From NCBI RefSeq assembly GCF_014205015.1, contig NZ_JACHMO010000001.1, forward strand, positions 6,262,001-6,326,000: a stretch of DNA of 64,000 nt, written 5' to 3'. Below the pieces are notes generated by a model. That model did no database searches, was not told the origin of the DNA, and saw nothing but the letters and a program-made list of their open reading frames with translations. Below, in pieces: positions 9,277 to 24,035 of this stretch. How positions within the stretch are numbered: the first letter of the stretch is position 1; the number at the start of each line of letters is the position of its first letter. Made by a program: the position numbers and the translations under genes. This stretch comes from Saccharothrix ecbatanensis (lineage in GTDB: Bacteria > Actinomycetota > Actinomycetes > Mycobacteriales > Pseudonocardiaceae).

Positions 9277-10074
9277 CTAGCCGAAACGCCCGTGCACGTA
9301 GTCGGAGGTGCGGGAGTCGGTCGGCGAGTCGAAGATTGTCGTTGTCGGACCCGCTTCCACGATCAAGCCCGGGGTGCCCTGCTCCGCCAGGAAGAAGGCG
9401 CACTGCTGCGACACCCGTGCCGCCTGCTGCATGTTGTGCGTGACGATCACGATCGTCACCTCGTGCGCCAACTCGGCGATGGTCTCCTCGATCCGCCGGG
9501 TCGACGTCGGGTCGAGGGCGGAGCACGGCTCGTCCATCAGCAGGACCTTCGGGCGCACCGCCAACGAGCGCGCGATGCACAGCCGCTGCTGCTGACCACC
9601 CGACAGGGCGCCGCCGGGCTGGCGCAGCCGGTCCTTGACCTCCGGCCACAGGCCCGCCTTGGTCAGGCACTCCCGGACCAGGTCGTCCTTCTCCGACCGC
9701 CTCGCCCGCACGCCGGTCAGCTTCAGGCCCGCCACCACGTTGTCGTAGATCGACATCGCCGGGAACGGGTTCGGCTTCTGGAACACCATGCCGATCTGCT
9801 TGCGCGCGTCGGTGAGCTTGCGCCCCGGGTCGTACACGTCCTGCCCGGACAGCAGCACCTCGCCCGCCAGCGACGCGCCGGGCACGAGTTCGTGCATCCG
9901 GTTGAGGATTCGCAGGAACGTCGACTTGCCGCAGCCCGAGGGACCGATCAGCGCGGTGACGGTGCCGGCCGGCATGACCAGTGAGACCCGGTCCAGGACT
10001 TTGCGGGCGCCGAACCAGGCCGAGATCGACCGGGCGTCCAAGCTTGCCAACGTCGGGGGCATGGTGAGCGTCAT
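9277..10074 (-). CDS. pstB: Phosphate-type ABC transporter ATP-binding protein PstB
   Basis: ATPase that powers a Pst-type importer at the inner face of the membrane, 265 residues, the usual PstB length. Visible motifs are Walker [10 protein letters not shown], the PstB-typical [10 protein letters not shown] stretch around the Q-loop, signature LSGGQQQR, Walker B VLLMDEP with CSALDP, and the switch His in VTHNM. The ATG at 10074 has GGAG about 9 bases upstream. It is the last gene of the minus-strand cluster that begins with pstC at 23227, separated from pstA by eight genes for surface proteins. That is an unusual arrangement, since pstB normally follows pstA. No phoU is present in the window. 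Confidence 0.93.
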
Positions 10075-10090
10075 CGGGTTCTCCGTCGGA

Positions 10091-11056
10091 TCAGATCAGG
10101 TTGGGCAGCAGGGCGGCGGTCTGGTCGGCGAGAGTCACGCCGAGCGCTCCCAGCAGCGGCACGCCGGTCACCCACGCGTGCCAGCGGCCGATCCGCTGGT
10201 GCAGGTACACCACGCCGAACGCGGCCACGGCGAGGATCAGCGCCCACAGCGCCACCGGCACCAGCGCGCCCGCGTCGCCGGCCATGACCCGCTCCTGGTC
10301 CGGCACCGCGAACTCGGGCAGCACACCCGACGTCGGCCGCACGTCGGACGTCAACTTCGCGTCCACGCGCAGGACGTCGGATGGCAGGAAGAACGGACCG
10401 TCGGCGGTGACGAGGGTCAGCCCGCCCTTGCCGGCGGCGGGGGTGTGGCGTTGCGGGTCGCCCGCCCGGCGCACACCCTGCACCTGGTAAAGGTGCTCGC
10501 CCTGGCCGGTCGTGACGGTGATCCGGTCACCGGGCACCAAGCGGTCGACGCGCGCGAACGGCCCGCCGTAGCCCGCACGCCGGCCGAGGATCACCGACGC
10601 GCCCGCCTGGCCCGGCATCGGCGAGTCGCGCAGGTGGCCGGGACCTGATCTCAGCGCGCCCGACGACGTGCCCTCCCCCACCACCTCGCGCACGCCGAGT
10701 CGCGGGATCTCCAGGATCGCGATGGGCGTGCCGGTCGGGACCAGCCGGCCGCCGTCGTCCACCGCCGCCACGGGAGCGGTGGCGTTGGCCAGGAGGCCGC
10801 GCAGCTCGTCGTAGGCGCGGGCTTGGTCGCGGTTGTGCTTGAGCGCGCCGATCACGGCGAACTGGAACACGAAGCACAGCAGCAGCGCGCCGAAGATCGC
10901 CAGCATCTGGCCCGCGGGACGCAGCACCGACCGTGCGGGCGCCACCTGCACCACCGGCGCCTCCGGCACTGCCTGCACTACCTGCGCCACCGACGCCTCC
11001 GGTGCGGACTCCGTGTGCGCCTGAGGGGACGCCGGAGGCGCCGGTGGGGCGGTCAC
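10091..11056 (-). CDS. Sortase-fold membrane protein lacking the catalytic His and Cys
   Basis: 321 residues: Ala/Pro-rich cytoplasmic N-terminus, one membrane segment (about 50-70), an extracytoplasmic sortase domain similar to actinobacterial class E enzymes (about 110-240), then two further membrane segments at the C-terminus. Family landmarks are kept ([37 protein letters not shown]). Where sortases have AGHR this protein reads LGRR (Arg159 for the catalytic His), and where they have TLxTC it reads TLVTA (Ala218 for the nucleophilic Cys). It therefore should not catalyse transpeptidation. I infer a scaffolding or substrate-holding role for the LASTG protein encoded just upstream. The GTG start overlaps that gene's stop (GTGA). 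Longer upstream readings are His-rich shadows of the Thr repeats. Confidence 0.85.
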
Positions 11057-12585
11057 CGCCGAACCCGCCGCTTGCGCGCCACGAACAGCGCCAGACCGCC
11101 GAACAGCACCAGCAGACCGCCCAGGAACAACGGGAGGCCGGTCGACGCGCCCGTGCTCGCCAGACCGGGGTTCTGCGGGTTCTGCCCGCCGGCGACCGGG
11201 GTGGTGGTGTCGGTCGTCGTGTCGGTCGTCGTGTCGGTCGTCGTGCCGGTGGTGGTGTCGGTGGTGGTGTCCGTCGTGGTGATCGGGTCCGTCGTCGTGG
11301 TGGAGCTGTCGGTGGTGGAGGCCGTGGTGGTCGTGGTCGGGATGACGCCGCCGATCACTTCCCACGCGGTCGGGCTGGTGAACCGGAGGCCGGTGACGAA
11401 GGACCGCAGCTTCTGCTGGAACGCGTCCACGCAGTGCGCCTCGACGCGGTAGTCGCCCGCCAGGACCTCGCCCTCGGCGTCCTTCGCGATGTCCTTGAAC
11501 GTCAGGTACTGCAACAAGGCGATGGGCTCGGACGCGGAGAAGTTCAGGTCGGTCGGCGGCAGGGCGGTCTGGCCATCGGCGAACACACCCGGACCGACGA
11601 TCATCATCTGGACCTCGGTGGACCCGTTGTCGCCGCAGCCCGTCGACGTGGTGTAGGTCGGGGCGCTCTCGTCGGAGCCGGAGGTCGGGTCGACGGTGAG
11701 CGTGAACTGGTTCCCGGGCGCCGTGGTCGTGGTCGTCGGCTCGACCGTCGTCGTGGTGGTCGTCGGCTCAACGGACGTCGTCGTGGTGGTCGTGGTGGTC
11801 GTGGGCTCGACCGTCGTGGTCGTGGTGGGGTCGACCGTGGTGGTCGTGGTGGGGTCGGCGGTCGTGGTCGTCGTCGGGTCCGTGGTGGTGGACTCCGTCG
11901 TGGTCGTGGTCGTGGTCGGCTCGGTCGTCGTGGTGGTCGACTCCGTCGTGGTGGTCGTCGGCTCGGTCGTGGTCGTCGTCGGGTCCGTGGTCGTCGTGAC
12001 CGGATCCGTCGTGGTGGTCGTGGGATCAGTGGTCGTAGTGGTGGGTTCGGTCGTGGTGGTGGTCGGGTCCGTCGTCGTGGTGGTCGTGGTTGTGGTGGTG
12101 GTGGTGGTCGCGTTCGGGTCGGTGGACCGGTAGTGCGTGGAGTCGGTGAAGTACAGCTTGCGGGTGAACGTGCCCTTGCTCTCGGTGGTGAACATGTCCA
12201 CGCAATTCACCACGACGGTGTACTCACCCGGCGCGACGGCGGTGCTGTTGTCGACCGCGATGTCCTTGAACGACAGGCCTTGCAGCACCGGGAACCCGGC
12301 TGCGGTGGAGAATCCGACGTCGGTCGGCGTGGTCCCGATGAGGCCGTTCTCGAAGCCGCCGGGACCGTAGACGAACAGGTTGTACCCGTCCGAGTCGGTC
12401 GGGCAGCCGGCGGACGTGGTGTACAGCGGCGCGGAGATGTCGCGGCCGGTCTCCGGGTCGACGCCGAGGCTGCCCAGCGTCGCGATCGGCGGCTCGGCCT
12501 GTCCGGTCGCCGCGGTGACGATCACCACGGCGCTGACCGCGGCCAGCACGGCCGCGGCTGCCGCCACCAGTTGGCGCTTGCGCAT
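11053..12585 (-). CDS. Secreted wall-anchored protein with two repeated two-cysteine domains, Thr-rich linkers and an LASTG sorting signal
   Basis: 510 residues. A signal peptide (1-30) is followed by a domain of about 110 residues (Cys61 in TSAGC, Cys128 in NCVD). Next come a long linker of TTTTT-D/E-P repeats, a second, more diverged copy of the same domain (TSTGC and HCVD), a second Thr/Asp linker, LASTG, a hydrophobic segment and the basic tail RKRRVRR. LAxTG is the pentapeptide preferred by class E sortases, so the protein is expected to be covalently fixed to peptidoglycan. The Thr-rich stalk is likely extended and may be glycosylated. The first domain is almost identical to that of the WxL protein encoded at 14409-15983. 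The ATG at 12585 is preceded by GGAGGAAC. I know no assigned function for this domain. Confidence 0.9.
   Translation of the reverse strand: MRKRQLVAAAAAVLAAVSAVVIVTAATGQAEPPIATLGSLGVDPETGRDISAPLYTTSAGCPTDSDGYNLFVYGPGGFENGLIGTTPTDVGFSTAAGFPVLQGLSFKDIAVDNSTAVAPGEYTVVVNCVDMFTTESKGTFTRKLYFTDSTHYRSTDPNATTTTTTTTTTTTTDPTTTTTEPTTTTTDPTTTTTDPVTTTTDPTTTTTEPTTTTTESTTTTTEPTTTTTTTESTTTDPTTTTTADPTTTTTVDPTTTTTVEPTTTTTTTTTSVEPTTTTTTVEPTTTTTAPGNQFTLTVDPTSGSDESAPTYTTSTGCGDNGSTEVQMMIVGPGVFADGQTALPPTDLNFSASEPIALLQYLTFKDIAKDAEGEVLAGDYRVEAHCVDAFQQKLRSFVTGLRFTSPTAWEVIGGVIPTTTTTASTTDSSTTTTDPITTTDTTTDTTTGTTTDTTTDTTTDTTTPVAGGQNPQNPGLASTGASTGLPLFLGGLLVLFGGLALFVARKRRVRR
11722..12108 (-). repeat. Thr-Asp/Glu-Pro codon repeat array inside the LASTG protein gene
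   Basis: Degenerate tandem repeats of ACC/ACG threonine codons broken by GAC/GAG-CCG give runs of TTTTT-DP or TTTTT-EP. A shorter Thr/Asp array lies at about 11200-11335. Such arrays change length easily by slippage. They also create spurious Val-rich (plus strand) and His-rich (minus strand) open frames that should not be annotated. Confidence 0.85.
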
Positions 12586-12624
12586 GAGCAGTTCCTCCGT
12601 TGTATGTGGGTAGGTCAGGCGGTG

Positions 12625-12656
12625 CGGTGGTCAGCGGGTTCGGTGGTCAGCGGGTT
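12625..12656. repeat. 16-bp tandem duplication across a stop codon
   Basis: CGGTGGTCAGCGGGTT occurs twice in direct succession. The duplication covers the TGA of the 236-residue protein gene (12647-12649) and carries a second in-copy TGA just downstream. It looks like a recent slippage event at the 3' end of that gene. Confidence 0.7.
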
Positions 12657-13357
12657 CGGCGACGGTTGAGGTAGGACCACGCCCCGACCAGCGCGAGCGC
12701 GCCGACGACGCCGATGGCGACGTGCAAAAAGGGTTGCCCGCCACCGGAACCGGTGGGCGCGGCCTCGGCGGCGGCCTCAGCGGCAGCGTCGGTGGCGGGC
12801 TGGTCTGTGGGTTGGCCCGGTTGGCCCGGTTGGCCGGGCACGTCCGATGACGGCGCGGCATCAGGCTCCGGCATGGGAGCGGGCACGATCAGTGGCGCGG
12901 TCGGCTGCTGCGGCCCCTTCGCCGCCCCCACGGCCACGTACCGGGCCGGCTCGACGAAGTCCACCGTCCCGGTGAACTCGCCGTACACCTCCTGCGTGAA
13001 CGCGTCGATGCAGTGCAGCCGCAGCTCGTACGGCCCGCTGAACGTGACGTTGTGGTCCGCGGCCAAGTCCTGGAACGTCAACGCCACCGGCACCTCGAAC
13101 GGCCGGTCGTGCGTCAACCCGACATCGCCGTTGGCCACGATCACCAGCCCCTCGGCCGGCAGCCCGCCACCGTGCATCGTCGCCGCGTACCCCGTCGCCT
13201 CGGCGGGACAGCCCGCCGACGTGGCCAGCCGGACCGGCGCCGCGTCACGGCTCTCCCCCGGCGTCACGACCAGGCCGCCAATCGGCGCGGCGTGCGCGGT
13301 CCCGGGCATGAACAGGAACAGCGATGCGAGAAGCATGAAAGTCTTACGCGGAAACAT
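12647..13357 (-). CDS. Secreted single-pass protein with one two-cysteine domain
   Basis: 236 residues. Signal peptide (1-23, cleavage likely after AHA), one copy of the domain found in the LASTG and WxL proteins (TSAGC Cys50, HCID Cys116, about residues 30-140), a Pro/Ala/Gln-rich linker, and a C-terminal membrane helix with RRRTR. It lacks a sorting motif, so it should stay membrane-anchored with the domain outside. ATG 13357 lies inside the 3' end of the DUF916 gene (14-bp overlap), so the two are translationally coupled. Function is not known; the domain is shared by three proteins of this cluster only, as far as this window shows. Confidence 0.85.
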   Translation of the reverse strand: MFPRKTFMLLASLFLFMPGTAHAAPIGGLVVTPGESRDAAPVRLATSAGCPAEATGYAATMHGGGLPAEGLVIVANGDVGLTHDRPFEVPVALTFQDLAADHNVTFSGPYELRLHCIDAFTQEVYGEFTGTVDFVEPARYVAVGAAKGPQQPTAPLIVPAPMPEPDAAPSSDVPGQPGQPGQPTDQPATDAAAEAAAEAAPTGSGGGQPFLHVAIGVVGALALVGAWSYLNRRRTR

Positions 13358-14351
13358 GTTCGACCTCCGGCAGCGGTTCGGAACGCACCCGGCCACGGGA
13401 CCGGCGGACGCGTCGGAACACCACGTACGCGAGCACCAGCAGCAGCACGATCACCAGCAGCCACGGCACGGCGGCGACCGTCACGCTCGCGGCGACGGCG
13501 GCGGGCGGCTCGGTGCCCGGCGGCGCGACCGGCTCGACCTGCACCAACGCGTCCAGCCAGCCGGCGGGCAACAGTCCCGGAACGGTCGCGGTGACGCGGA
13601 AGGTGTTACCCGGCAACAACTCCGGCAAGTCCGCCAAGCCGGGAGCATCGACCCCGGCGGCCCAGGGTGTCTCGACGCGCACCTTCTGCTTGCCGCCCAG
13701 CCGCACGTTGCCGGTGTTGCGGACGACGTAGGTGACGGTCGTGTCACCGCGCCCGAACAACGCACCCGCGTAGTCCGCGGTCAGGTCTTCCACGATCAGC
13801 TCGGGCCGGAGGTCGCCGGACACGCGCAGGTAGATCCGGGCGCCCACGCGCTGCTCCACGGCGACGCGCTGGCCGTCGGCCCCCGCGGCCTCGGTGGTCA
13901 GCGACGCGACGATGCCGCCGGTGTGGTCGCCGGGCGTGGCGTTGCCGGGGATGGTCAGCGTGAACGGCACGATCGCCGTGGAGCGGGCCGGGATCTGCAC
14001 CTCGCCGCGCTCCAGCACGGACCACTTGCCCACGTCGACCGGCTCACGTCCGGCGGCGAGGAGGTCGAAACCGCCGTCCGGCGTGTTGAAAGCGTCACTG
14101 GCGTACACGCGCAGCGTCACCGGCTCGGTGGCCACGTTCGACACCGCGACGTGATCGCGCACCACGGCTCCCGGCGTGGCGCTGTACGTGAACGCGCTGC
14201 GGTTGTCCGGCGCCTGCGCGGTGGCGGGCCGCACGCCGAACGTCGCCGGAGCGGCCACAGCCTGCGGCGCGGCCGAAACCACGAGGGCCAACGCCGAGAG
14301 CACAAGGGCGAACAGGCCGGAAAGCGCGACACGACACCAGGTCCGCGTCAT
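13344..14351 (-). CDS. DUF916/WxL-interacting-type membrane protein
   Basis: 335 residues. Signal peptide (1-33), a beta-rich ectodomain that begins with FGVRPATA and contains NVATEPVTLRVYASD and a GDHTGGIVAS stretch, then one C-terminal membrane helix and a basic tail. This layout (signal, DUF916-like domain, second Ig-like domain, membrane helix) matches the WxLIP proteins of Firmicutes, whose N-terminal domain binds peptidoglycan and whose second domain binds WxL proteins. Here it follows a WxL-type protein gene (14409-15983), which supports that partner. The ATG at 14351 has AAGGACTTTGCC upstream. WxLIP function is known only from low-GC bacteria; its transfer here is inference. Confidence 0.8.
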   Translation of the reverse strand: MTRTWCRVALSGLFALVLSALALVVSAAPQAVAAPATFGVRPATAQAPDNRSAFTYSATPGAVVRDHVAVSNVATEPVTLRVYASDAFNTPDGGFDLLAAGREPVDVGKWSVLERGEVQIPARSTAIVPFTLTIPGNATPGDHTGGIVASLTTEAAGADGQRVAVEQRVGARIYLRVSGDLRPELIVEDLTADYAGALFGRGDTTVTYVVRNTGNVRLGGKQKVRVETPWAAGVDAPGLADLPELLPGNTFRVTATVPGLLPAGWLDALVQVEPVAPPGTEPPAAVAASVTVAAVPWLLVIVLLLVLAYVVFRRVRRSRGRVRSEPLPEVEHVSA

Positions 14352-14373
14352 GGCAAAGTCCTTAGTGGAGGGT

Positions 14374-14403
14374 GGGGCGGGCCGTGGGTAACCGGCCCGC
14401 CCC
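14374..14403 (-). terminator. Strong hairpin between the WxL and DUF916 genes
   Basis: GGGGCGGGCC and GGCCCGCCCC form a perfect 10-bp stem around a 10-base loop in the 57-bp gap. There is no U-run. It probably attenuates readthrough or protects the 3' end of the upstream message, so that the WxL surface protein is made in excess over the genes that follow. Confidence 0.6.
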
Positions 14404-14408
14404 GTCGA

Positions 14409-15983
14409 TCAGATGGCGGTGAGGGTGAGCGTCGCGGTGTAGGTGCCCGCGAGCGTCGACGTCGGCACCTTCAGCGCCAGGTCGGCGCCGAGGTTCGCGG
14501 TGCCGTTGCCGCCGAGCGCGGCGGCCGTGGCCAGGGTGCGCGCGGTGGACAGGCCGAGGCCCGCACCCGCACCCGGGACGACGGCGTCGGCCGGCTCGAC
14601 CACGGGGCCGGCGGTGATGTTCTGCACCGGCGACTTGTCCACGATCTTCGGCGACCAGCCGAGGTTTGCGCCGTTGATGCTGTTGGCGCCGCCGGCGAAG
14701 TCCGTCACCTGGCCGGAGACGTTCCAGCCCGGGTTGCCCGCGCGGGTGTCGGTGACCGTGATCGGGTTGAGCGCGCCGGCAGTGGTCAGCAGCGAGCCGT
14801 CGGCGGACATGACCGGCGAGGGCAGCACCACGTTCTGGTTCGCCACGCTGATCAGCAGCTCACCGGCCAGCACCTCGGTGGTGATGGTCTCGGAGGCCGA
14901 GACGCCCGCGAACGGCGTGATGTCCAGCGTCACACCGGCCGAGACGGAGGTCTCGAACGCGCCGGCGTTGGCCGGCACGAAGCGCGCGGTGAAGCTGTGC
15001 GCGCCCACGGCCAGCGTGGCGGTGGTCAGGGTGGCGTTGCCGCCGGAGACCGCCACCGGGTTGCCCAGGTTGCCGGCGCCGTCGAGGAACTGCACGGTGC
15101 CCGCCGCGGTGGCCGGGGCCACGGTGGCGCTGAGCGTCACGGAGGAGTACTGCGCCGCCGTGCCGCTCGGGGTGACCGCGAGGGCGGTCGTGGTCGGCGT
15201 CGCGACCGGGGCGTTGACCTGGTAGGACACCGCCGCCGACGTGGACGTGGAGATGTTGGCGGCGGCGCCGGTGAACACCGCGGTCAGCGAGCGGGCGCCC
15301 GCCGCGAGGTCCGAGGTGGTCAGCGTGGCGACGCCGTTGTTCACCGCGACGGCCGCGCCGAGGTTGGCCGCGCCGTCCTTGAACTGCACGGTGCCGGCGG
15401 CCGAGGCCGGGGTCACGGTGGCGGTCAGCGTCACGGGCGTGCCCGCAATGACGGGGGCGTTCGGGGACACGGCCAGCGCGGTGCTGGTGGTCACCGGGGC
15501 GTTCGGGTCCGTGGCGGACCAGGCCGTGGCGCTGGTGAAGTACAGCTCACGGGTGAACGTGCCCTTGGTCTCGCCCGTGAACAGGTCCACGCAGTTCACC
15601 GCGACGGTGTACGTGCCGGGCACGATCGTGGTGCTGTTGTCGACCGCGATGTCCTTGAAGGACAGACCCTGCAACACCGTGATCGGGCCGGAGGTCGAGA
15701 AGCCGACGTCGGTCGGCGTGGTGCCGATGAGGCCGTTCTCGAAGCCGCCCGGACCGTAGACGAACAGGTTGTAGCCGTCCGAGTCGGCGGTGCAGCCGGC
15801 CGACGTGGTGTAGGACGGCGCCTCGACGTTGACGCCGGTCTGCTTGCTGACGGTGAGCGTGCCCAGGTTGCCCGCGGGCGGGGCGGCCATGGCGACGCCG
15901 GCCGTGCCCAGGGTGGCCGCGGCGAGGGCCGCGAGCGCGATGGCGCCGCCTGCGAGGCGACGGATGACGGTGGTTCCGCGCAC
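14409..15983 (-). CDS. Secreted surface protein: two-cysteine domain, two Ig-like repeats, WxL-type C-terminal domain
   Basis: 524 residues from the GTG at 15983 (AAGG 7 bases upstream). In order: signal peptide (1-34), two-cysteine domain (Cys64, Cys131), two Ig-like domains of the Big_3_5 type (about 170-350, each with AAGTVQFxDGAxNLG), and a C-terminal domain (about 360-524) with WNVSGQVTDF and LGWSPKI that resembles the WxL cell-wall-binding domain. It has no membrane helix or sorting signal, so non-covalent binding to the wall is expected. Its neighbour encodes the matching DUF916-type partner. The two-cysteine domain is nearly identical, also at DNA level, to that at 12140-12420. An adhesive or solute-presenting coat protein is my inference. 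Confidence 0.85.
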   Translation of the reverse strand: MRGTTVIRRLAGGAIALAALAAATLGTAGVAMAAPPAGNLGTLTVSKQTGVNVEAPSYTTSAGCTADSDGYNLFVYGPGGFENGLIGTTPTDVGFSTSGPITVLQGLSFKDIAVDNSTTIVPGTYTVAVNCVDLFTGETKGTFTRELYFTSATAWSATDPNAPVTTSTALAVSPNAPVIAGTPVTLTATVTPASAAGTVQFKDGAANLGAAVAVNNGVATLTTSDLAAGARSLTAVFTGAAANISTSTSAAVSYQVNAPVATPTTTALAVTPSGTAAQYSSVTLSATVAPATAAGTVQFLDGAGNLGNPVAVSGGNATLTTATLAVGAHSFTARFVPANAGAFETSVSAGVTLDITPFAGVSASETITTEVLAGELLISVANQNVVLPSPVMSADGSLLTTAGALNPITVTDTRAGNPGWNVSGQVTDFAGGANSINGANLGWSPKIVDKSPVQNITAGPVVEPADAVVPGAGAGLGLSTARTLATAAALGGNGTANLGADLALKVPTSTLAGTYTATLTLTAI

Positions 15984-16021
15984 TGTTGACCTTCCAGAAA
16001 GTGTGGTTGCGCCGGGTCGGA

Positions 16022-17002
16022 CTAGGACGCGGGGGTGACGAGCTGGGTGTTGCCGCAGTTCGGGCTGATGCCGAAGCCGTACTGCGTGATCACGTCGGTC
16101 TTGGTGCAGATCACCGAGTCCGCGCCGGTGAAGACCTGGTCGTAGGTCGGGTCCGTGAGCTTCGGCGTGGGCACCACGTTGTAGACGTCGCGCTTGAAGG
16201 TCGACGCCGTGTTGAGGATCGTCGGCGAGACGCCGTTGAACGTGGCCAGCACGGCCTTGCCCTGCGCGGCGGGGGCCGCGCCGTAGATCTGCGAGGCGTA
16301 CACGGCGATCGAGTACGGCAGGATGTGCTTGGTGTCGGTCAGGTAGGTGCCGACGTGCTCCTGGATCGGCTGCCCGTTGACGTCCGTGTCGACCACGCAC
16401 GGGTACGTCGTGGTGAAGGCGGCCGTGTTCGGCAGACCGAGCTGCTTCAGGAAGAAGTCGCGGCTGCCCGAGCCGAACTGCGGCAGCAGCGGCTTGAAGT
16501 TGGTGCCGACGCCCGGCGCGGTGCAGTTGAAGATCGACTTGAGCTGCGCCGTGGTCAGCTTCTTGCTGACCGTGCTGTCGCTGCGGACCGCGTAGGTCAT
16601 GGCGTCGACGGCGAACGGGATGTAGGTCAGGTTCTTGCCCGCGTAGTTCGCGCGGTTGTCCGACGACGAGCGCGCGACCTGCACGCAGTTGTTGCCCGCC
16701 TCGACGGACGTCACCAGCGCGGTCACGCCGGCGCCGGACGAACCCGGCCGCGGGATGGTGCAGCCGGCGGCCTTGGTGGTGATGTTGTCCGAGCCGCGGG
16801 CGTCGTAGGAGCCCATGACCTTCACGCCGCCGACGAGGACCGCGTCGGACAGGCCGTTCATCACCGTCTGGGTGGTGTCCGAGCCGACGACGACGATGTC
16901 GCGGTAGGTGGGCGTGCCGACCGGGTCGGCCTGGGCCGGGGACGCCACGAGGGCGACGGCGGCGACGGCGGCAGCCGCCGCGCCGAGCATGCGCTTGCTC
17001 AC
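16022..17002 (-). CDS. Secreted PstS-like solute-binding protein
   Basis: 326 residues from a GTG with AAAAGGA upstream. A signal peptide ends near SPAQA. The rest resembles the PBP-like domain of PstS proteins: VGSDTTQTVMNGL at the N-terminus, RGSDNIT in the middle, FVVDAM-like FAVDAMTYAV, LTTAQLKSIFNC, and a Cys-rich end. No lipobox Cys, membrane helix or sorting signal is visible, so it should be free in the wall or medium, unlike ordinary PstS lipoproteins. It is the third PstS-like protein of the cluster, immediately before the WxL protein gene (38-bp gap). The ligand could be phosphate or a phosphate ester; not shown. Confidence 0.82.
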   Translation of the reverse strand: MSKRMLGAAAAAVAAVALVASPAQADPVGTPTYRDIVVVGSDTTQTVMNGLSDAVLVGGVKVMGSYDARGSDNITTKAAGCTIPRPGSSGAGVTALVTSVEAGNNCVQVARSSSDNRANYAGKNLTYIPFAVDAMTYAVRSDSTVSKKLTTAQLKSIFNCTAPGVGTNFKPLLPQFGSGSRDFFLKQLGLPNTAAFTTTYPCVVDTDVNGQPIQEHVGTYLTDTKHILPYSIAVYASQIYGAAPAAQGKAVLATFNGVSPTILNTASTFKRDVYNVVPTPKLTDPTYDQVFTGADSVICTKTDVITQYGFGISPNCGNTQLVTPAS

Positions 17003-17162
17003 TGCGGTTATCCTTTTCTGCGCAGAGGTCGAGCGGACTTCGTGTCCACTCGCTGTCCGGCGCGGTCACGCGCACCGGTGTTCGTTTTCGTGGTCTGTCC
17101 GGTTCGTGTCGGAGCGCCAACTCCGGCACGGCCGGGCAGTCTCGGCCTCACCTCCCTCTTCT

Positions 17163-17192
17163 GGGCTGTACGCCTTTCTTCACGGACAGCCC
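17163..17192 (-). terminator. Hairpin in the 208-bp gap between two PstS-like genes
   Basis: GGGCTGT and ACAGCCC pair across a 16-base loop, 19 bp upstream of the stop of the next gene to the left on the plus coordinate. The interval 17003-17210 has no gene. The structure is modest and could be an attenuator, mRNA processing site or chance. Confidence 0.35.
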
Positions 17193-17210
17193 TTCTTCGT
17201 GGACGTCACG

Positions 17211-19595
17211 TCACGACCCGCCCCGGCCGAACCGCTGCAACAGCGGCCCCGCGCCGGTGGCCAGGCCGCCGACGACGAGCAGGCCCGCGAGCAGGTTCCG
17301 CAGCCACCAGCCGACCGGGCCGGCGGGCGTGTTCTCGATCTGCGCGACCGGTGTGGCCGACGGCGGCGGTTCGGCCGCCGCGACCGGCGGCGGAGCGGGC
17401 GCGGCAGGAGCGGCGGGCGCGGCCGTGCGGGTCGTGGCACGCGGACGGGTCGTCACCGGTGCGGCGGCTGCTTCCTCCTGCGTCGGCGACACGATCGCCT
17501 TGCCCGCGTCACGCTCGATCACACCTGCCGCGTCGATGGCCGGCTTGCGCAGCACGTCCGGCAGCGGCAGGTAGCCCAGCGGCAACTGGCCCTCGCCCTC
17601 ACCGCGGGTCTGGCCCGATCCCGCCGCGAACCGCAGGAACTTCGCGTACTCCGCGCCCGCCGCCGCGGTCATCGCCGACGGAACGGCCGCCGCGTAGGTG
17701 ACGGCGGGCAGCGGGTAGGCGTCGGCCGCCTTCGTGGTCGGGTTCGCCCGGCCGACGCCCGGCACGTCGGTGGCGCGCAACTGGCCGACCGCCGCACGCA
17801 GGCCCGCGTCGTCCGGCGCCACGAAGTTGCCGGCGCTGTTGCGCAGCTTGGCGGTGTGCAGGCCGTAACGGGCGGCTGTCGCCGTGTCCACCAACGCCAG
17901 CAGGCTGCGTTCACCCGCGGGCTGGCGCGGCACCTTGCCGTAGCCCGGCTTGGTCGGGTCGGCCGGGTCCGGCAGGCCGGTCGGCGAGCGGCCCAGCGTG
18001 TCGCCGCGGCTGATCGCCCGGCCGCCCTCGTGCATGTCGGCGGCCAGCGGCCGGGCCGTCAACGCGCAGTCCGGCCCCAGCGGGAACGGCAGTTCCTGGC
18101 AGCTGAGGTCCTGCTTGGGGAAGTTCTGCACCGGCAGCGACAGCCCCCGGTAGTTCTGGTTGACCACCATGCCCGCCGGGTCCGGCGTCCCGTTCAGGAA
18201 CGCGCGGGCGTCCGGGTCGGCGTCGATCCAGGTCCACAGGGTCGCGGTCATGTCCAGGTCGACCGACGGCACGAGGACGTCCAGCGTGTTCATCAACGCG
18301 CCGTAGGTCTTGAAGTCCGGGTTCAGGTCGAGGAACTCCGGGTCCTCGTTGAGCCGCCGGTGGTTCTTCGCCAGGTACGGCTGCTTGCCCGGCACCGCGT
18401 CCCGGTACGACTGGGTGAGCAGCTTGGCGACGAGCCTCGGCGTCAGCTTCAACTCGGTGATCAGCTGCCCGTCGCGCTGCCACACCGCCGGGTCCGTCTC
18501 CACCGCCGGCCCGCGCGACTGCCGTTCCATGACGAACGCGATCGCCAGCCCGGACACCGCGACGGGCGCGTGCACCACCGGGCGTTCCGGCGTGCCCGGC
18601 TGGGGCTCGGTCATGAACACCATCCCCGGCGCCGCCGACGCGAGCCGTTCGCGGCTGATCCGGTCGGGCACCCTGGTGAAGCCGAACACCGTGCCGCCGT
18701 TCGCGCACAGCGCGGGCTGCCAGCGGCCGACCGCGTCGGCGACGAACTCGTGCCCGGCGAGCGTCCGCTCGGCCGCGCCGATCGGACAGGCCACCCCCAC
18801 CGGCCGGAAGTCCAGCTTGATCGGAACGGCCTGCTCCCAGTTGGTCCGGCTCAGCGGCGAGGAGTCCAGGTTGTTGCTGGTGTGGTCGACACCGGGCTTC
18901 CTGCCGTTGACCTCGGTGTCACCGCGCGGCACGACGACCAGCCAGCAGTGCCGCGGCTTGCCCTGGTCCGGGCCGGACGCGCGGACCTCGCCGCAGCCGA
19001 GGCCGAACGCCTCCAGCGCGGTCTGCACCTCGAAGTCGACTTCACCCGTGCCGTCGGCGCGGGTCTTGGCGAACGGCACCTCGTTGGTGGTGCCCGCGTC
19101 GAAGAACGTGCCGAACGACGTGGTCTTCTGGCCCTTCACGGAGTGGAACTCGGCGTAGGCGGCGCCGTTCGCGGGAACCGGTGTGGTCTCGGCCGGGTCC
19201 TTCGGGTCGCTGTAGGCGATCTGCCTGCTCTTGGTGAAGTTGCCCAGGCCCAGACCGGCCTGCCCCTCCAACCCGCCGAACTGGCACTGCTCGCGGGTCG
19301 GGCCCTTCGGGTCGTCACCCCAGCACTGCATGATCTGGAGGTAGTCGGTGGCGAACCGGCCGACCGGACCGGTCTCCCGGCCGCCGGTCCAGCTGACCCG
19401 CACGGTCTGGTTGATCAGGTCCCGCGTGTGCGACACCGTGACGCGCAGGTCCGGGAACTTGTCCCGGCCGGGCACCGTGACTTCGGACGTCGAGGGTTGG
19501 GACGTCGAGGGTTGGGCGCCGACCGGAGCCGCCGGCACCAGGGCGATCCCGGCGGTCACGAGGAGTGCCGCCAGCGTCAACCGGATGAGCTTCAT
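17211..19595 (-). CDS. Large membrane-tethered PstS-like surface protein
   Basis: 794 residues. Signal peptide (1-27), a long ectodomain, a Pro/Ala/Thr-rich stalk and one C-terminal membrane helix with a short basic end. The C-terminal half of the ectodomain has PstS-like stretches (AISRGDTLGRSPTG, KFLRFAAG..., LPLGYLPLP). The N-terminal half carries several Cys (MQCWGDD, REQCQFGG, CWLVVVPRG, VACPIG). I do not recognise a family for the N-terminal part. It overlaps the preceding gene by ATGA, so the two are translationally coupled. With the 518-residue PstS and the 326-residue PstS-like protein it forms a graded set of binding proteins: two held by C-terminal helices and one free. Confidence 0.85.
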   Translation of the reverse strand: MKLIRLTLAALLVTAGIALVPAAPVGAQPSTSQPSTSEVTVPGRDKFPDLRVTVSHTRDLINQTVRVSWTGGRETGPVGRFATDYLQIMQCWGDDPKGPTREQCQFGGLEGQAGLGLGNFTKSRQIAYSDPKDPAETTPVPANGAAYAEFHSVKGQKTTSFGTFFDAGTTNEVPFAKTRADGTGEVDFEVQTALEAFGLGCGEVRASGPDQGKPRHCWLVVVPRGDTEVNGRKPGVDHTSNNLDSSPLSRTNWEQAVPIKLDFRPVGVACPIGAAERTLAGHEFVADAVGRWQPALCANGGTVFGFTRVPDRISRERLASAAPGMVFMTEPQPGTPERPVVHAPVAVSGLAIAFVMERQSRGPAVETDPAVWQRDGQLITELKLTPRLVAKLLTQSYRDAVPGKQPYLAKNHRRLNEDPEFLDLNPDFKTYGALMNTLDVLVPSVDLDMTATLWTWIDADPDARAFLNGTPDPAGMVVNQNYRGLSLPVQNFPKQDLSCQELPFPLGPDCALTARPLAADMHEGGRAISRGDTLGRSPTGLPDPADPTKPGYGKVPRQPAGERSLLALVDTATAARYGLHTAKLRNSAGNFVAPDDAGLRAAVGQLRATDVPGVGRANPTTKAADAYPLPAVTYAAAVPSAMTAAAGAEYAKFLRFAAGSGQTRGEGEGQLPLGYLPLPDVLRKPAIDAAGVIERDAGKAIVSPTQEEAAAAPVTTRPRATTRTAAPAAPAAPAPPPVAAAEPPPSATPVAQIENTPAGPVGWWLRNLLAGLLVVGGLATGAGPLLQRFGRGGS

Positions 19596-21148
19596 CTGCC
19601 CTCTCCCCGTCCGCGCAGCCGCCGGGCCACCAGCGGCGGTCCCACCACGAGCGCGACGAGCAGCACACCCGCCACCGCGACCAGCAATGCCGTGTTGTCC
19701 TCACGCAGATCCACCGAGACCGGGGTCGCGTAGGCCTCTTCGCGGGCACGCCGTGCGACCTTGGCGGTGCTCTCCCCGGCCGCCACGTCCTCGACCACGG
19801 CCGCCTCTTCCCCGGCCGCCGCCTGCTCCTCGACCACGGCGGCCTCTTCCTGTTCCGCCGCCGCCGCCTCACCGCCGCCGGTCCGGGTGGCCTCCTTCGC
19901 GCCGCCGGTGCCGTCCTCGCACTGGATCGGCCCCTGCTTGTCGCAGTCCTTCGGCTGCGGCGCGGTCACCGCGAGGGTGTTCGTCCCGTCCGCCGAGAAG
20001 GTCGGGTTGTTGCACTTGCTGATGTCCTTGTTCTGCCTGGTCGTGCCGGGGATCTTGGCGACCTGGTCCATCCCGGCCCGGACCAGGTTGATCGGCAGCG
20101 GCGAGTACCCGAGCAGGTCGGCCTGCTGCTGCCCCTCGCACAGGAAGTAGTAGGCGAAGTCGGACAGGGTCCGGCCCTTGTCCTTGGTGAACTTCGCCGT
20201 CTCCTTGGTGGGCAGGACCATGTAGCTGTAGCTGGCCATCGGGTAGCTGCGCGCGTCCTGGTTGCCGTAGACCTGGCTGAGGTCCTGGGTCAGGTCGGTC
20301 TCGTTCACCTTCGCCGCGAGCAGCGCGACCGCGACCGCCGACGACTTCGGCTCGACGTAGTACCCCTTGGCGTTGAGCAGCTTCACCACCGGGAACGCCG
20401 CGGCGCGGGCGTAGGAGTACTCGACGTAGGTGATCGAGCCCTCGGTGCCCTCCTGCCGCACGTAGTTGGCGACGCCGATGGACAGGTCCTGGCCCACCAT
20501 CGGCGGGATCTTGGGGTAGTTGGACGTGAACCCGCACGGCGTGGCGCGCTTGGCCCGTCGGCAGAAGTCGTCCCACAGCCCCGGGTGCTGGCTGGCCATC
20601 CAGGAGGTGAACTGCGCGGTGCTGCCCGAGCCGTCCGACCGCACCACCGGCACGACCTTGCGGTCCGGCAGCTTCAGCCCGGGGTTGTCCCGGGCGATCG
20701 CCGGGTCCGCCCACGTGGTGATCACGCCGGTGAAGATCTTGGTGACGACCTCGCCGGACAACCGCAGGTTGGTGACCCGCTTGCCGCCGATCTTCAGGTT
20801 GTACATCAGCGACGTGCCGCCCGCGACGATCGGCATGTAGGCGTACGTGCCCTCCGCCGGCGGCACGTCACGCACACCGCCGTCGGTCAGGCCGTACGGG
20901 ATCTCCGACACCGCGAAGTCGACCTGGCCGGCCTTGAACTGGTTGCGGCCGGTGCTGGACCCGCTGCCGGTGAAGCTGATCCGCATCCCGTACTGCGCGA
21001 CGTTCGTGCGCCACTGGTCGATCGCGTTGCTGCTCCACGTGGAGCCGCTGCCGCTGATCGGCGTGTAGCTCTGCGCCGACGCGGCCGGTGCGGCGACGGT
21101 CAGCACCAGGCCGACGACGGCCAGCAGGCTCAAGGGCCGGGTGATCAT
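19592..21148 (-). CDS. pstS: PstS-type solute-binding protein anchored by a C-terminal membrane helix
   Basis: 518 residues from the ATG at 21148, which has AGGAGAG just upstream; a GTG at 21160 overlapping the pstA stop is an alternative. Signal peptide ending ASA, then a PstS fold: SGSGSTWSSNAIDQW, TGSGSSTGRNQF, VSEIPYGL, IFTGVITTWADPAI, VVRSDGSGSTAQFTSWM and YFLCEGQ. These match the phosphate-contact loops of PstS, although the usual SD before P is SE here. A Glu/Ala-rich stalk and a C-terminal helix replace the lipoprotein anchor. Directly downstream of pstA, it is the best candidate for the true importer partner. Confidence 0.88.
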   Translation of the reverse strand: MITRPLSLLAVVGLVLTVAAPAASAQSYTPISGSGSTWSSNAIDQWRTNVAQYGMRISFTGSGSSTGRNQFKAGQVDFAVSEIPYGLTDGGVRDVPPAEGTYAYMPIVAGGTSLMYNLKIGGKRVTNLRLSGEVVTKIFTGVITTWADPAIARDNPGLKLPDRKVVPVVRSDGSGSTAQFTSWMASQHPGLWDDFCRRAKRATPCGFTSNYPKIPPMVGQDLSIGVANYVRQEGTEGSITYVEYSYARAAAFPVVKLLNAKGYYVEPKSSAVAVALLAAKVNETDLTQDLSQVYGNQDARSYPMASYSYMVLPTKETAKFTKDKGRTLSDFAYYFLCEGQQQADLLGYSPLPINLVRAGMDQVAKIPGTTRQNKDISKCNNPTFSADGTNTLAVTAPQPKDCDKQGPIQCEDGTGGAKEATRTGGGEAAAAEQEEAAVVEEQAAAGEEAAVVEDVAAGESTAKVARRAREEAYATPVSVDLREDNTALLVAVAGVLLVALVVGPPLVARRLRGRGEGR

Positions 21149-21156
21149 CTCTCTCC

Positions 21157-22215
21157 TCACTTCGACCGCCCGCCCCGGCCGCGGCCACCGACCACTCGGG
21201 CGAGCACGAACAGGACCAGCACCAGGCCCATCAGCACTGCGGCGGCGCCGAAACCGCGTTGCTTCATCGTTTCCTCCGACGACGTGACCATCTGGAAGGT
21301 CGCCAGCGGCAGCGACACCTGGGAGTCGACGAACGGGTTCCAGTTCAGGAACGGGGTGAAGCCGGCCGTGATCAGCACCGGCGACGTCTCACCGACACCG
21401 CGTGCGGTGGCCAGCAGCACGCTCGTGGTCAGGCCGGACCGCGCCGTCGGCAGCACCACGTGCCACACCGTGCGCAGTTGACCGGCGCCCAGTGCCAGCG
21501 AGGCTTCCTTCAGCGAGCTGGGCACCATCCGGAGCACCACGTCCGCCGCACGGATCATGATCGGCAGCATCATCACGCTGATCGCGCAGCCCGCGGCGAA
21601 GCCGGAGCGCTCGAAGCCCAGCCCGAGGATCAGCGCCGCGTAGACGAACAGACCAGCCACGATGGACGGCAGGGCGGTCATCGCCTCCACCACCGTGCGC
21701 ACCACCCGGGTGAAGAAACCCCAGGTCTCGTTGAGGAACACGGCACAGGCCAGTCCCAAGGGGACGGTGATGACCAGGGCGATGGTGATCTGCATCAGCG
21801 TGCCGACGGCGGCGTGCATCACCCCGCCGAGCTCCAACGGGTCCAGCGTGCCCGCGTGCGCCATGTCGTCGGTGAAGAAGTTGAGGTGCGCCAACGCTTC
21901 CGCGCCCATGACGATCGGGTAGGCCACGATGAACACCAGCGCGCCGAGCGCCACCAGCGCGAAGCTGTGCACGACCGCGGAAGCGAGCCGGTCGCGCACG
22001 GCCAGCGCGTCGTCGTGCAGCGAGATCAGCAGCGCGTACAGGCCGAGGAACAGGGCGTAGGCGATCGCGATGAACGCCATCGCACCGCTGAACGGCGCGA
22101 TCTGGTCGAACAGCAGGCCCGTCGACGCGATCGCGGCCGCCGCCGCGCCCAGTGCCGCCCCGAGGTCCGACCGCCGCGCGGCGCCCGTCACCCGGCGCAC
22201 TTCCGGTGTCGTCAT
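21157..22215 (-). CDS. pstA: Phosphate-type ABC transporter permease PstA
   Basis: 352 residues from the ATG at 22215 (GGGGAG 8 bases upstream); a GTG at 22224 is an in-frame alternative. Two N-terminal helices precede the usual six-helix permease core. The EAA-loop region reads KEASLALGAGQLRTVWHVVLPTARSGL, and RGVGETSPVLITAG is PstA-typical. Longer than most PstA proteins because of the extra N-terminal helices. It almost abuts the pstC stop and overlaps the downstream PstS region. Confidence 0.93.
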   Translation of the reverse strand: MTTPEVRRVTGAARRSDLGAALGAAAAAIASTGLLFDQIAPFSGAMAFIAIAYALFLGLYALLISLHDDALAVRDRLASAVVHSFALVALGALVFIVAYPIVMGAEALAHLNFFTDDMAHAGTLDPLELGGVMHAAVGTLMQITIALVITVPLGLACAVFLNETWGFFTRVVRTVVEAMTALPSIVAGLFVYAALILGLGFERSGFAAGCAISVMMLPIMIRAADVVLRMVPSSLKEASLALGAGQLRTVWHVVLPTARSGLTTSVLLATARGVGETSPVLITAGFTPFLNWNPFVDSQVSLPLATFQMVTSSEETMKQRGFGAAAVLMGLVLVLFVLARVVGGRGRGGRSK

Positions 22216-22216
22216 G

Positions 22217-23227
22217 TCAGTCACTCCCCTGGCCGGACCGGCTGCGCGCGATGACGGCGGAGGCCACGAAGTTGACCACCAGCGTGAGCACGAACAACGC
22301 CAGACCGGCCGCCATCAGCGCGGACAGGCCGAACGGGCTCGCCGCGCCCCACTGCTGCGCGATGAGGGCGGACACGGAGTTGCCGCCGCTGCCCAGGATC
22401 TGGGTCTGGATGGCGAAGACCGGCGCGATGATCATGGCCACCGCGATGGTCTCGCCGAGCGCCCGGCCGAGGCCGAGCATCGTGCCGCCGATCATGCCGC
22501 TGCGCCCGAACGGCAGCACCACGCTGCGGATGACGCCCCACCGGGTGGCGCCGAGCGCGTACGCGCCCTCGCGTTCCCCTTGCGGCGCCTGGGTGAACGA
22601 CTCGCGCATCACCGAGCAGATGAACGGCATCACCATGAACCCGACGACCAGCCCGGCCCAGAACGTCGAGGTGACGTAGGCCGAGTCGGTGGACAGGGGG
22701 TTGTCCGGGTCGGCGCCCTCGACGTCCAGGAACGGGATCCAGCCGAACTGGATCGACAGCCACCGCGGCACGTCCACGCCCTGCCACTGGAGGAACGTCG
22801 AGCCGAACAGCCCGTAGACGACGCTGGGCACCGCGGCCATCAGGTCGACCAGGCTCGTCAGTGCCTGCCTGATCCGCGGCGGGGCGTACTCGGAGATGTA
22901 GAGCGCCACGCCCAGCGCCAGCGGGAACGCGATCACCAGCGCCACGGACGCGATCAGCACCGTGCCGACCAGCACCGCCGCGATGCCGAAGTCCAGCGAG
23001 TCCGGCTCCCACGTCTGGGTGGTGAAGAAGTCGAAGCCGGCCTCGGAGATCGCGTCCGCGCCGCGGGTGGCGAGGAAGAGTCCGACAGTGGCCATCACCA
23101 CCAGCACCGCGAGCCCCGCCACCCGCAGGACCGACCGGAACACGCGGTCGATCCCGCCGGAAGGCCCCACGCGGCGACGTGGGCCGTCGGCGCGTTCCGT
23201 GGGCGGTGGACTGAGGGTCACGGTCAT
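22217..23227 (-). CDS. pstC: Phosphate-type ABC transporter permease PstC
   Basis: 336 residues, starting at MTVTLSPPP (ATG 23227, GGGAG about 11 bases upstream). Six membrane helices, with the PstC hallmarks FFTTQTW, VPSVVYGLFG, EREGAYALGATRWGVIRSVVLPFGRSG and GLGRALGETIAVAM. It is the first gene of the cluster that runs to 9277, so the main promoter should lie in 23228-23411, where a PHO-box-like repeat is found. Open frame continues upstream but has no conserved sequence. Confidence 0.93.
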   Translation of the reverse strand: MTVTLSPPPTERADGPRRRVGPSGGIDRVFRSVLRVAGLAVLVVMATVGLFLATRGADAISEAGFDFFTTQTWEPDSLDFGIAAVLVGTVLIASVALVIAFPLALGVALYISEYAPPRIRQALTSLVDLMAAVPSVVYGLFGSTFLQWQGVDVPRWLSIQFGWIPFLDVEGADPDNPLSTDSAYVTSTFWAGLVVGFMVMPFICSVMRESFTQAPQGEREGAYALGATRWGVIRSVVLPFGRSGMIGGTMLGLGRALGETIAVAMIIAPVFAIQTQILGSGGNSVSALIAQQWGAASPFGLSALMAAGLALFVLTLVVNFVASAVIARSRSGQGSD

Positions 23228-23330
23228 CTTCGGGAACTCCCGAGTCGGCGGGCCGGGGTCGGTGGCTTCGTCGTGCTGCGCTGGTTCGGCGCAAGCAGAA
23301 CCCGCCGAGTTTTCGCGGTCCGGATGCGGC

Positions 23331-23348
23331 CGTGAACAACGGACGAAC
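23331..23348 (-). promoter_or_regulatory. PHO-box-like direct repeat upstream of pstC
   Basis: Read on the minus strand, GTTCGTC and GTTCACG start 11 bp apart about 105-120 bp before the pstC start. Spacing and sequence resemble a two-unit PhoP site (GTTCACC every 11 bp), with mismatches. It supports phosphate-starvation control of the cluster but is not proof. Confidence 0.4.
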
Positions 23349-23411: not shown

Positions 23412-23759
23412 TCAGAATTGCTCCACCGGCGCACGGCCGACGGTCGGCGCGAGCTCCACGAGTTCGAGAAAACTGCGGCACGCGTACTGGGCCTGGATCC
23501 GCCGGTGATAACTGCGGCTGGACACGGCGAGGACGCACCCCTCCAGCCGCAGCCGCCAGGACCACAACTTCGCGTCACGGGACATCGTCGTGGTGCTGTC
23601 GATCAGGCGTTCACGCAGCTCATCGACCGAATGGACGCAGGCTTCGACGGTCGGGAAGACGATCGCGGACTGACCGAGACTACGGTTGTTGGCCGACAGG
23701 AAGCGCCACGTGACACCGGAGTCGGCGGGTCTGTAGAGCTGGAAACGGGCAGCGGCCAT
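23412..23759 (-). CDS. Small DUF1508/YegP-like protein
   Basis: 115 residues from the ATG at 23759, which has GGGGGA 7 bases upstream. The sequence FQLYRPADSGVTWRFLSANNRSLGQS followed later by WSWRLRLEGCVLAVSSRSY resembles two YegP-like (DUF1508) units, small beta-beta-alpha-beta folds of unknown role. Cytoplasmic, no signal or membrane segment. Codon use is normal for the window. It stands alone between the pst cluster and the divergent histidine kinase gene. Confidence 0.65.
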   Translation of the reverse strand: MAAARFQLYRPADSGVTWRFLSANNRSLGQSAIVFPTVEACVHSVDELRERLIDSTTTMSRDAKLWSWRLRLEGCVLAVSSRSYHRRIQAQYACRSFLELVELAPTVGRAPVEQF

Positions 23760-23819
23760 CGGGTTTTCCCCCACTCATTCGTGCGCCCCCGACGCCATGT
23801 CGAATGCTCGGTTTCACGG

Positions 23820-23890: not shown

Positions 23891-23945
23891 CCGTCACGGA
23901 CGGAAATTGGTCCGTCACGAATACTCGCGTAGTCCGTCACGGACA
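23891..23945. promoter_or_regulatory. Three CCGTCACG repeats, two helical turns apart, upstream of the two-component genes
   Basis: CCGTCACG starts at 23891, 23912 and 23934 (21- and 22-bp steps). The last copy sits in a perfect palindrome GTCCGT-C-ACGGAC (23933-23945), and the first two copies form a near-perfect 10-bp inverted repeat around an 8-bp spacer. The array ends about 90 bp before the kinase start. NarL-type regulators bind short inverted heptamers, so autoregulation by the adjacent response regulator is the simplest reading. Confidence 0.55.
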
Positions 23946-24035
23946 ATAATCGGACGACTCCGAAAATGGACGAAGCCGTCGGTGGTAGCACTTTCGGCCG
24001 ATACGGAGCGGTTCGCCGGCTCGTACCATGGCCCG

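Follow-up and report, generated by a model that had tools for sequence, protein, structure and literature searches.

A conserved actinobacterial gene cluster with a Pst-type transporter, three PstS-like proteins and a sortase fold that lacks its catalytic residues

Phosphate is often scarce for actinomycetes in soil, and in Streptomyces it controls the production of antibiotics. Here we describe a gene cluster of Saccharothrix ecbatanensis in which the genes of a Pst-type transporter stand together with three PstS-like proteins, a sortase-fold protein and several surface proteins. It lies in a stretch of 64,000 nucleotides (nt), below called the window (NCBI RefSeq assembly GCF_014205015.1, contig NZ_JACHMO010000001.1, positions 6,262,001 to 6,326,000 of the forward strand), of a 9.69 Mb genome that forms a single contig; all positions are those of the window. 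The strongest of the new facts are a core of seven genes, a dead sortase in every cluster with room to show it, and an altered pocket in the second of the PstS-like proteins. The cluster may serve actinobacteria as a second system for the uptake of phosphate, different from the usual one, and collect phosphate across the thick cell wall.

Gene order and conservation of the cluster

An earlier inspection of the DNA alone, which we call the sequence-only reading, had listed eleven genes lying one after another, and all eleven open reading frames are confirmed on the minus strand, from 23227 down to 9277. The order is pstC, pstA, the genes of the three PstS-like proteins (SBP1, SBP2 and SBP3), WxL-like, WxLIP, CC2, the gene of a wall protein with an LASTG signal, the sortase-fold gene and pstB. 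The overlaps of a few bases between neighbours are also there: 8 nt for pstC/pstA, 4 nt for pstA/SBP1 and 4 nt for SBP1/SBP2, while a gap of 208 nt lies after SBP2, ahead of SBP3. PstC and PstA both score above the curated Pst cut-offs (Table 1); PstB is slightly below its own, with the Walker A, signature and Walker B motifs all intact.

Named genomes were scanned with an alignment of SBP2, which gave 367 confirmed loci. The best 80 of these were analysed, so the counts lean to near relatives. A gene is counted as present when its profile score exceeds a threshold that we set ourselves, and contig ends give the denominators 71, 57 and 51. Of the 71 loci with 5 kb upstream, 70 contain pstC, pstA and SBP1, and all 57 loci with 9 kb downstream contain SBP3, the sortase-fold gene and pstB. 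With room on both sides, the seven-gene core is complete in 50 of 51 loci, where the presence of SBP2 is given beforehand, as the search was made with it.

About 25 named genera are represented among the best 80 of the 367 loci, with Saccharothrix, Amycolatopsis, Actinokineospora, Streptomyces, Kitasatospora and Actinoplanes, and further Catellatospora, Nocardioides, Kineosporia, Cellulomonas, Curtobacterium and Frondihabitans. The nearest SBP2 in this set is that of Saccharothrix carnea, at 81%. Restriction of the gene order to close relatives would have spoken against a common function; the order is conserved far beyond them, and therefore the arrangement is not a matter of chance. The cluster is one conserved system, bigger than first noted.

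Of 296 genomes drawn evenly from the phylum, 7 (counting the own genome) have a match to SBP2 that spans at least 480 of the 812 model positions. Some match to SBP2 is found in 45 of the 296, and most of the others are short, as the C-lobe of a canonical PstS gives (the spans were read by eye). The distribution across the phylum is patchy. The cluster is present twice in each of two genomes (L063 and L070 in genome G001; L039 and L179 in genome G132). Part of the cluster is also found on a contig labelled as a Bifidobacterium breve metagenome-assembled genome (L101), which is probably mis-binned.

Table 1. Genes of the cluster and the repeat upstream of it, in window positions; scores are in bits, with the curated cut-off in brackets
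Feature	Position	Strand	Description	Evidence
PHO-box-like tandem	23327..23348	-	two 11-nt units, GTTCGTCCGTT GTTCACGGCCG, ~120 nt before pstC start	
pstC	22217..23227	-	permease	TIGR02138 256.7 (196.45)
pstA	21157..22224	-	permease	TIGR00974 211.8 (193.45)
SBP1	19592..21160	-	PstS domain, acidic/Ala-rich linker, C-terminal membrane helix	TIGR00975 206.7 (205)
SBP2	17211..19595	-	extra N-terminal beta region, PstS fold, Pro/Ala linker, C-terminal helix	AlphaFold, Foldseek, hhalign
SBP3	16022..17002	-	secreted PstS-like protein without C-terminal membrane helix	AlphaFold, Foldseek
WxL-like	14409..15983	-	two-Cys repeat, two Big_3_5 immunoglobulin (Ig) domains, C-terminal WxL-like domain	
WxLIP	13344..14351	-	DUF916/PGBD domain, C-terminal membrane helix	PF06030 31.9 (27.3)
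CC2	12647..13396	-	single two-Cys repeat, C-terminal membrane helix	
LASTG wall protein	11053..12585	-	two two-Cys repeats, Thr-rich stretches, LASTG signal	
Pseudosortase	10091..11056	-	class-E-like sortase fold between membrane helices	PF04203 62.4 (26.6)
pstB	9277..10074	-	ATPase	TIGR00972 339.6 (343.2)

The start of pstC is the ATG at 23227. For the sortase-fold and WxL-like genes the probable starts are GTG at 11056 and GTG at 15983, which were read by comparison with homologues and not with a start-site tool.

A sortase fold without catalytic residues and three PstS-like proteins

The sequence-only reading had named a sortase-fold protein, and its fold is borne out by Pfam (Table 1), but the catalytic His and Cys are gone. 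The best solved matches are 4d70 (2.9e-16), 5go6 (7.5e-16; deposited as a putative secreted protein) and 5go5 (1.4e-15), and an Arg is aligned where these three hold the His of a G-H-R motif. Among 66 such proteins (65 loci over 150 bits and the window), the catalytic His site is Arg in 66/66, while the Cys site holds Ala in 59 of them, Gly in 5 and Thr in 2, and never Cys. The family keeps a GR..YGGPF-like loop, the motif VDA.L and a C-terminal membrane segment that ends in LLPNL or similar. The sortase-fold protein is a pseudosortase, and it is present in every cluster with room (57/57).

One branch of seven loci (L057, L061, L063, L064, L065, L068 and L070) has the gene in another place, between SBP2 and SBP3. 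The GR loop is seen in six of its seven proteins, and TA or TS occupies the Cys site in four; the pattern did not catch the others.

Like the class E sortases of actinobacteria, the pseudosortase has a sortase fold, and class E is its top NCBIfam match, at 79.9 bits (under 160). Unlike them, it lacks the catalytic His and Cys and has a conserved C-terminal membrane segment with the LLPNL-type tail. Anchoring of the LASTG protein was considered as its function and rejected: both catalytic residues are missing, and the protein is also found in clusters without a detected LPxTG-type protein. The two other sortase-fold proteins of the own genome retain the catalytic His and Cys, so that anchoring of the LASTG protein could fall to one of the two.

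The presence of three PstS-like proteins, also noticed at the outset, holds. SBP1 is over the TIGR00975 cut-off and matches a solved PstS at 1.4e-45; SBP2 and SBP3 are partial matches by sequence and have PstS folds in their AlphaFold models. The model of SBP2 (pLDDT 84.4) matches PstS3 in Foldseek at 5.4e-11, with TMt 0.76 over the PstS part, and that of SBP3 (pLDDT 89.4) matches the small phosphate-binding protein 4q8r at 2.9e-12. A C-terminal membrane helix is found in 72/73 SBP1, 69/78 SBP2 and 0/76 SBP3 proteins. As for a lipobox, there is no Cys in the signal region of the SBP1 of the window, and any Cys at all within the 30 residues ahead of the SBP1 domain is found in 8 of 72.

To describe the binding pocket we use positions 10, 38, 56, 135, 137, 139, 140 and 141, which we take to be the phosphate contacts in E. 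coli PstS numbering. Counted over 74 SBP1 proteins (73 loci over 300 bits and the window), Ser38 and Gly140 are kept in 74/74, Ser139 in 73/74, and Arg135 and Asp137 in 72/74 each; position 10 is Thr or Ser in 74/74 and position 141 in 73/74. The PstCAB pump and SBP1 look competent for phosphate. In the hhalign profile alignment of SBP2, E283 and D311 align with the contacts Thr10 and Ser38, and these two sites are Glu or Asp in 80/80 and 79/80 resolved rows, respectively. From this pocket, phosphate binding by SBP2 seems unlikely.

The WxL-like and WxLIP proteins are undetected in shorter clusters such as L147, L139, L130 and L148, where SBP3 is 676 to 734 residues long. In three of these four, all of which were scanned, SBP3 carries Big_3_5 Ig domains, which in the window sit in the WxL-like gene. 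The shared Ig domain therefore links SBP3 with the surface layer.

Relation to canonical Pst and the ligand of the cluster

In a tree of PstC, the 23 sequences from clusters group together in a single clade (support 0.916) that excludes 11 canonical PstCs, and for every one of these 11 the tree also contains a cluster PstC from its own genome; L172, L180 and L070 yielded no sequence above the threshold. In view of this separate clade we rejected a simple recent duplication of the canonical pst genes. Further, at least two PstCs over the cut-off are found in the own genome and in 11/11 other cluster genomes checked, and the four-gene set pstS-C-A-B is visible in 11 of 12 canonical-type stretches examined. 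These results support that the cluster stands beside a canonical pst operon.

Both systems have PstC, PstA, PstB and a receptor of PstS fold, and some cluster loci also have an 11-nt direct repeat upstream, as canonical PstSCAB does. The differences are that the cluster has three PstS-like proteins instead of one, that its SBP1 is tethered by a C-terminal helix and not by a lipobox (the canonical PstS of the own genome carries a lipobox-like signal), that pstB comes last and distant from pstCA, that a dead sortase belongs to the core, and that its PstCs form their own clade.

In its passages on transport, a review of phosphate in Streptomyces describes PstSCAB and PitH, as well as extra Pst systems in mycobacteria, and by these passages and by term counts it contains no sortase (PMC7866108). 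The mycobacterial systems (PstS1-3) resemble the cluster in that one actinobacterium has an extra Pst and several PstS proteins, but the passages describe them without surface or sortase-fold partners (PMC7866108). By sequence, the mycobacterial PstS proteins were compared through the PDB matches to PstS1 and PstS3 only. A literature search in open-licence PMC papers turned up no Pst importer that is accompanied by WxL proteins, a sortase fold or several PstS proteins in this manner; the sequence-only reading likewise knew of no description of the combination in actinomycetes.

A PHO-box-like tandem lies ahead of pstC in the window (Table 1). The PHO boxes of Streptomyces are described as a pair of direct repeats of 11 nt each, whose core is GTTCACC (PMC4415409, PMC2605767). 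In most of the loci that carry a repeat, the direct repeat (GTTCGTCCGTN GTTCAC-like) is found ~80 to 125 nt before pstC. A TTC[AG] pair spaced by 11 nt is present in 19/72 pstC upstreams (the window and 18 others), compared with 6/637 control upstreams, taken from the other genes of these loci; the 72 are 71 loci with pstC and the window, and the distances are approximate, as pstC starts were chosen by length. The p-value of a Fisher test is 1.4e-15, which is overstated, because the loci share ancestry and the repeat was already known when the test was designed. In some lineages the cluster may be under Pho control, to judge from this repeat.

We read the cluster as an accessory phosphate importer, with receptors that span the cell wall on a dead-sortase scaffold and with probable Pho control in some lineages, and we give this reading a probability of slightly below one half (about 0.47). 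The pump would consist of PstC, PstA and PstB, and SBP1, a PstS that is tethered through a C-terminal helix in place of a lipid, would bind phosphate and dock on it. SBP3 lacks an anchor and is linked to Ig and wall-binding parts either by neighbourhood or by fusion, and it is therefore likely to be the outer receptor: a secreted capture protein that is fused to Ig domains in the shorter clusters, and that in the window would sit in the wall beside the WxL-like/WxLIP pair and the LASTG protein. In SBP2 and the pseudosortase the membrane helices are retained but known contact or catalytic residues have been lost, so the simplest guess is a scaffold or docking role, in which the two would hold the receptors over the pump.

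The sequence-only reading had proposed a wall-spanning layer that captures phosphate, or a phosphorylated ligand, for the importer. Phosphate capture remains plausible, given the conserved system, the SBP1 contacts and the PHO-box-like repeat; however, the WxL/WxLIP layer is an optional part, and SBP2 probably does not bind phosphate. A more specific version, which we consider rather doubtful, is a relay across the wall that would differ from all importers known to us, where the dead sortase and the PstS fold with the acid pocket would make a membrane dock that passes phosphate from wall receptors to the pump, and a transporter would have taken over the sortase fold as a structural component.

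Another parallel in design is the Isd haem relay of Staphylococcus, where wall-anchored receptors, a membrane receptor, an ATP-binding cassette (ABC) pump and a sortase gene are together in one locus. The cluster has the same kinds of parts, but with phosphate-binding folds instead of NEAT domains (no NEAT family is among the Pfam hits of the window proteins) and with a sortase without catalytic residues. To our knowledge, the passage of nutrients across the thick Gram-positive wall has been described in detail for haem but not for phosphate. If the accessory importer is real, it would be a phosphate counterpart to this crossing, patchy across the phylum, in which a sortase fold without activity, yet found in 57/57 clusters with room, stands beside a PstS fold with an altered pocket. 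A second route for phosphate would bear on life with scarce phosphate and on antibiotic production.

Several observations weigh against the reading as an accessory phosphate importer. The test on the repeat is post hoc and its loci are not independent. The TTC[AG] pair is found in 0/24 pstC upstreams of Streptomycetaceae (0/16 in Streptomyces and 0/8 in others), and in the nearest named relative, Saccharothrix carnea (L079), the second unit before pstC is broken. A scan with a consensus that we take to be that of the PHO box is weak: in 8/71 loci at most 3/60 shuffles are as good, while in the window 46/60 are, and for the canonical pstS of the own genome, used as a positive control, 7/60. A scan for sigma-70 promoters found none. 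By a simple pattern, the stretch from SBP2 to pstB encodes an L[AP]xTG protein in only 22/62 loci (20/41 with WxLIP and 2/21 without), so covalent anchoring in the wall is not general. Finally there are the substitutions in SBP1. Position 56 is acidic in 74/74, with Glu in 64 (the window included) and Asp in 10, and the swap from Asp to Glu could change the ligand; further, in the seven-locus branch, which is a second and more distant branch of SBP1, Arg135 is His and Asp137 is Glu, with Asp kept at 56.

These substitutions are the starting point of the alternative that survives best, namely that the cluster imports another ligand, a phosphorylated or other oxyanion compound that the canonical PstS rejects, with Glu56 and the altered SBP2 pocket as marks of its specificity. 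The loci that combine Asp56 with His for Arg135, the canonical Pst already present in the genomes checked and the lack of the repeat in Streptomycetaceae are all in line with it. However, most of the remaining phosphate contacts are kept in nearly all 74 SBP1 proteins, and the repeat in 19/72 upstreams points to phosphate limitation. We regard another ligand as unlikely.

Further observations on the repeat concern the gap between SBP2 and SBP3. In L079 a PHO-box-like pair lies inside this gap (12339-12360 in the numbering of that locus), and none is intact before pstC. Among 61 loci, L079 is the only one with a TTC[AG]-type repeat in the gap (1/61), and the window has none there.

Surface proteins and neighbouring features

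A two-Cys repeat of ~120 residues is common to the LASTG protein, CC2 and the WxL-like protein. The assignment of a WxL-type protein stands in part: the similarity is there, but PF13731 gives 20.0 bits, below its 25-bit cut-off, and the definition by dual W-x-L motifs fails. The domain has a single W-x-V/L/M motif, which is W-x-V in the window, while the expected second, C-terminal site has no Trp (LTL in 18/22, LTI in 3/22 and VTF in 1/22). A PDB search with the WxL-like alignment found no match. The DUF916/WxLIP-type protein is on firmer ground, as it is over the Pfam cut-off and matches EfmWxLIP1 in the PDB at 9.8e-5; the second domain, DUF3324/HBD, gives no hit at E 0.01 in the WxLIP of the window or in two from Streptomyces.

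According to the parts of the literature consulted, WxL clusters are described almost wholly in Lactobacillales and Bacillales (PMC10599100). As in the window, these Firmicutes clusters have a DUF916 WxLIP with a membrane helix beside a WxL-like protein, often together with an LPxTG-type protein (PMC10599100, PMC9772566). In contrast to what these parts describe, the cluster has a WxL domain without the dual W-x-L and under the Pfam cut-off, no DUF3324 hit, and a linked ABC importer.

How closely do the surface genes belong to the pump? Co-occurrence of Pst with DUF916 and WxL genes had been proposed as a check, and the WxL-like and WxLIP genes are together in 40/57 clusters, but the pair is optional. 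In 17/57 clusters they are below the threshold, and for this reason we rejected the WxL/WxLIP layer as the heart of the system. We also searched 150 genomes of the order with WxLIP, and 41 of them matched, at 55 places; the best 39 outside the window were fetched and 15 weaker ones left out. Of the 39 loci, 11 have SBP2 and other cluster genes in a like arrangement, while in 28, some of which are cut by contig ends, no SBP2 is seen in the stretch. WxLIP is therefore not tied to pst.

Such loci, and the clusters in which the pair is below the threshold, would fit the view that the surface genes are a layer for wall attachment or adhesion that merely shares operon and control with a duplicated pump. 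We hold this to be quite improbable, since SBP3 and the sortase-fold protein are present in all clusters with room and SBP3 is fused to Ig repeats in three of the four short ones. The weakest alternative, to which we give the least credence, is that the cluster is mainly a phosphate sensor that reports outside phosphate across the wall to a Pho or cell-wall response, with import of minor importance: the PstB motifs are intact and no regulator is among the conserved core genes profiled, although the extra Pst occurs in genomes that already have one, SBP2 resembles a non-binding receptor, and a kinase/regulator pair adjoins the cluster in the window, as a regulator and kinase-like pair, seen by eye, does upstream in L147.

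The pair in the window is a histidine kinase and a LuxR-type response regulator at 23937-25825 (+), divergent from the cluster. Also upstream of pstC, a protein of 120 residues at 23412-23774 (-) is without a Pfam or NCBIfam match.

Within the cluster, the SBP2/SBP3 gap (17003-17210, -) folds into several strong stems (z -3.4, with 1/200 shuffles equally good), and a gap of comparable size is found in most of 62 loci measured. The folded gap may give SBP3 a different expression level. A search of the region in Rfam gave no match.

Downstream of pstB there is an open reading frame of 1832 residues at 3032-8530 (-), polyketide-synthase-like and named from its sequence only. Further away, a family-30 glycosyl hydrolase with a ricin-type lectin domain is encoded at 38827-41997 (-), and genes for a solute-binding protein and an ABC ATPase are found elsewhere in the same half of the window.

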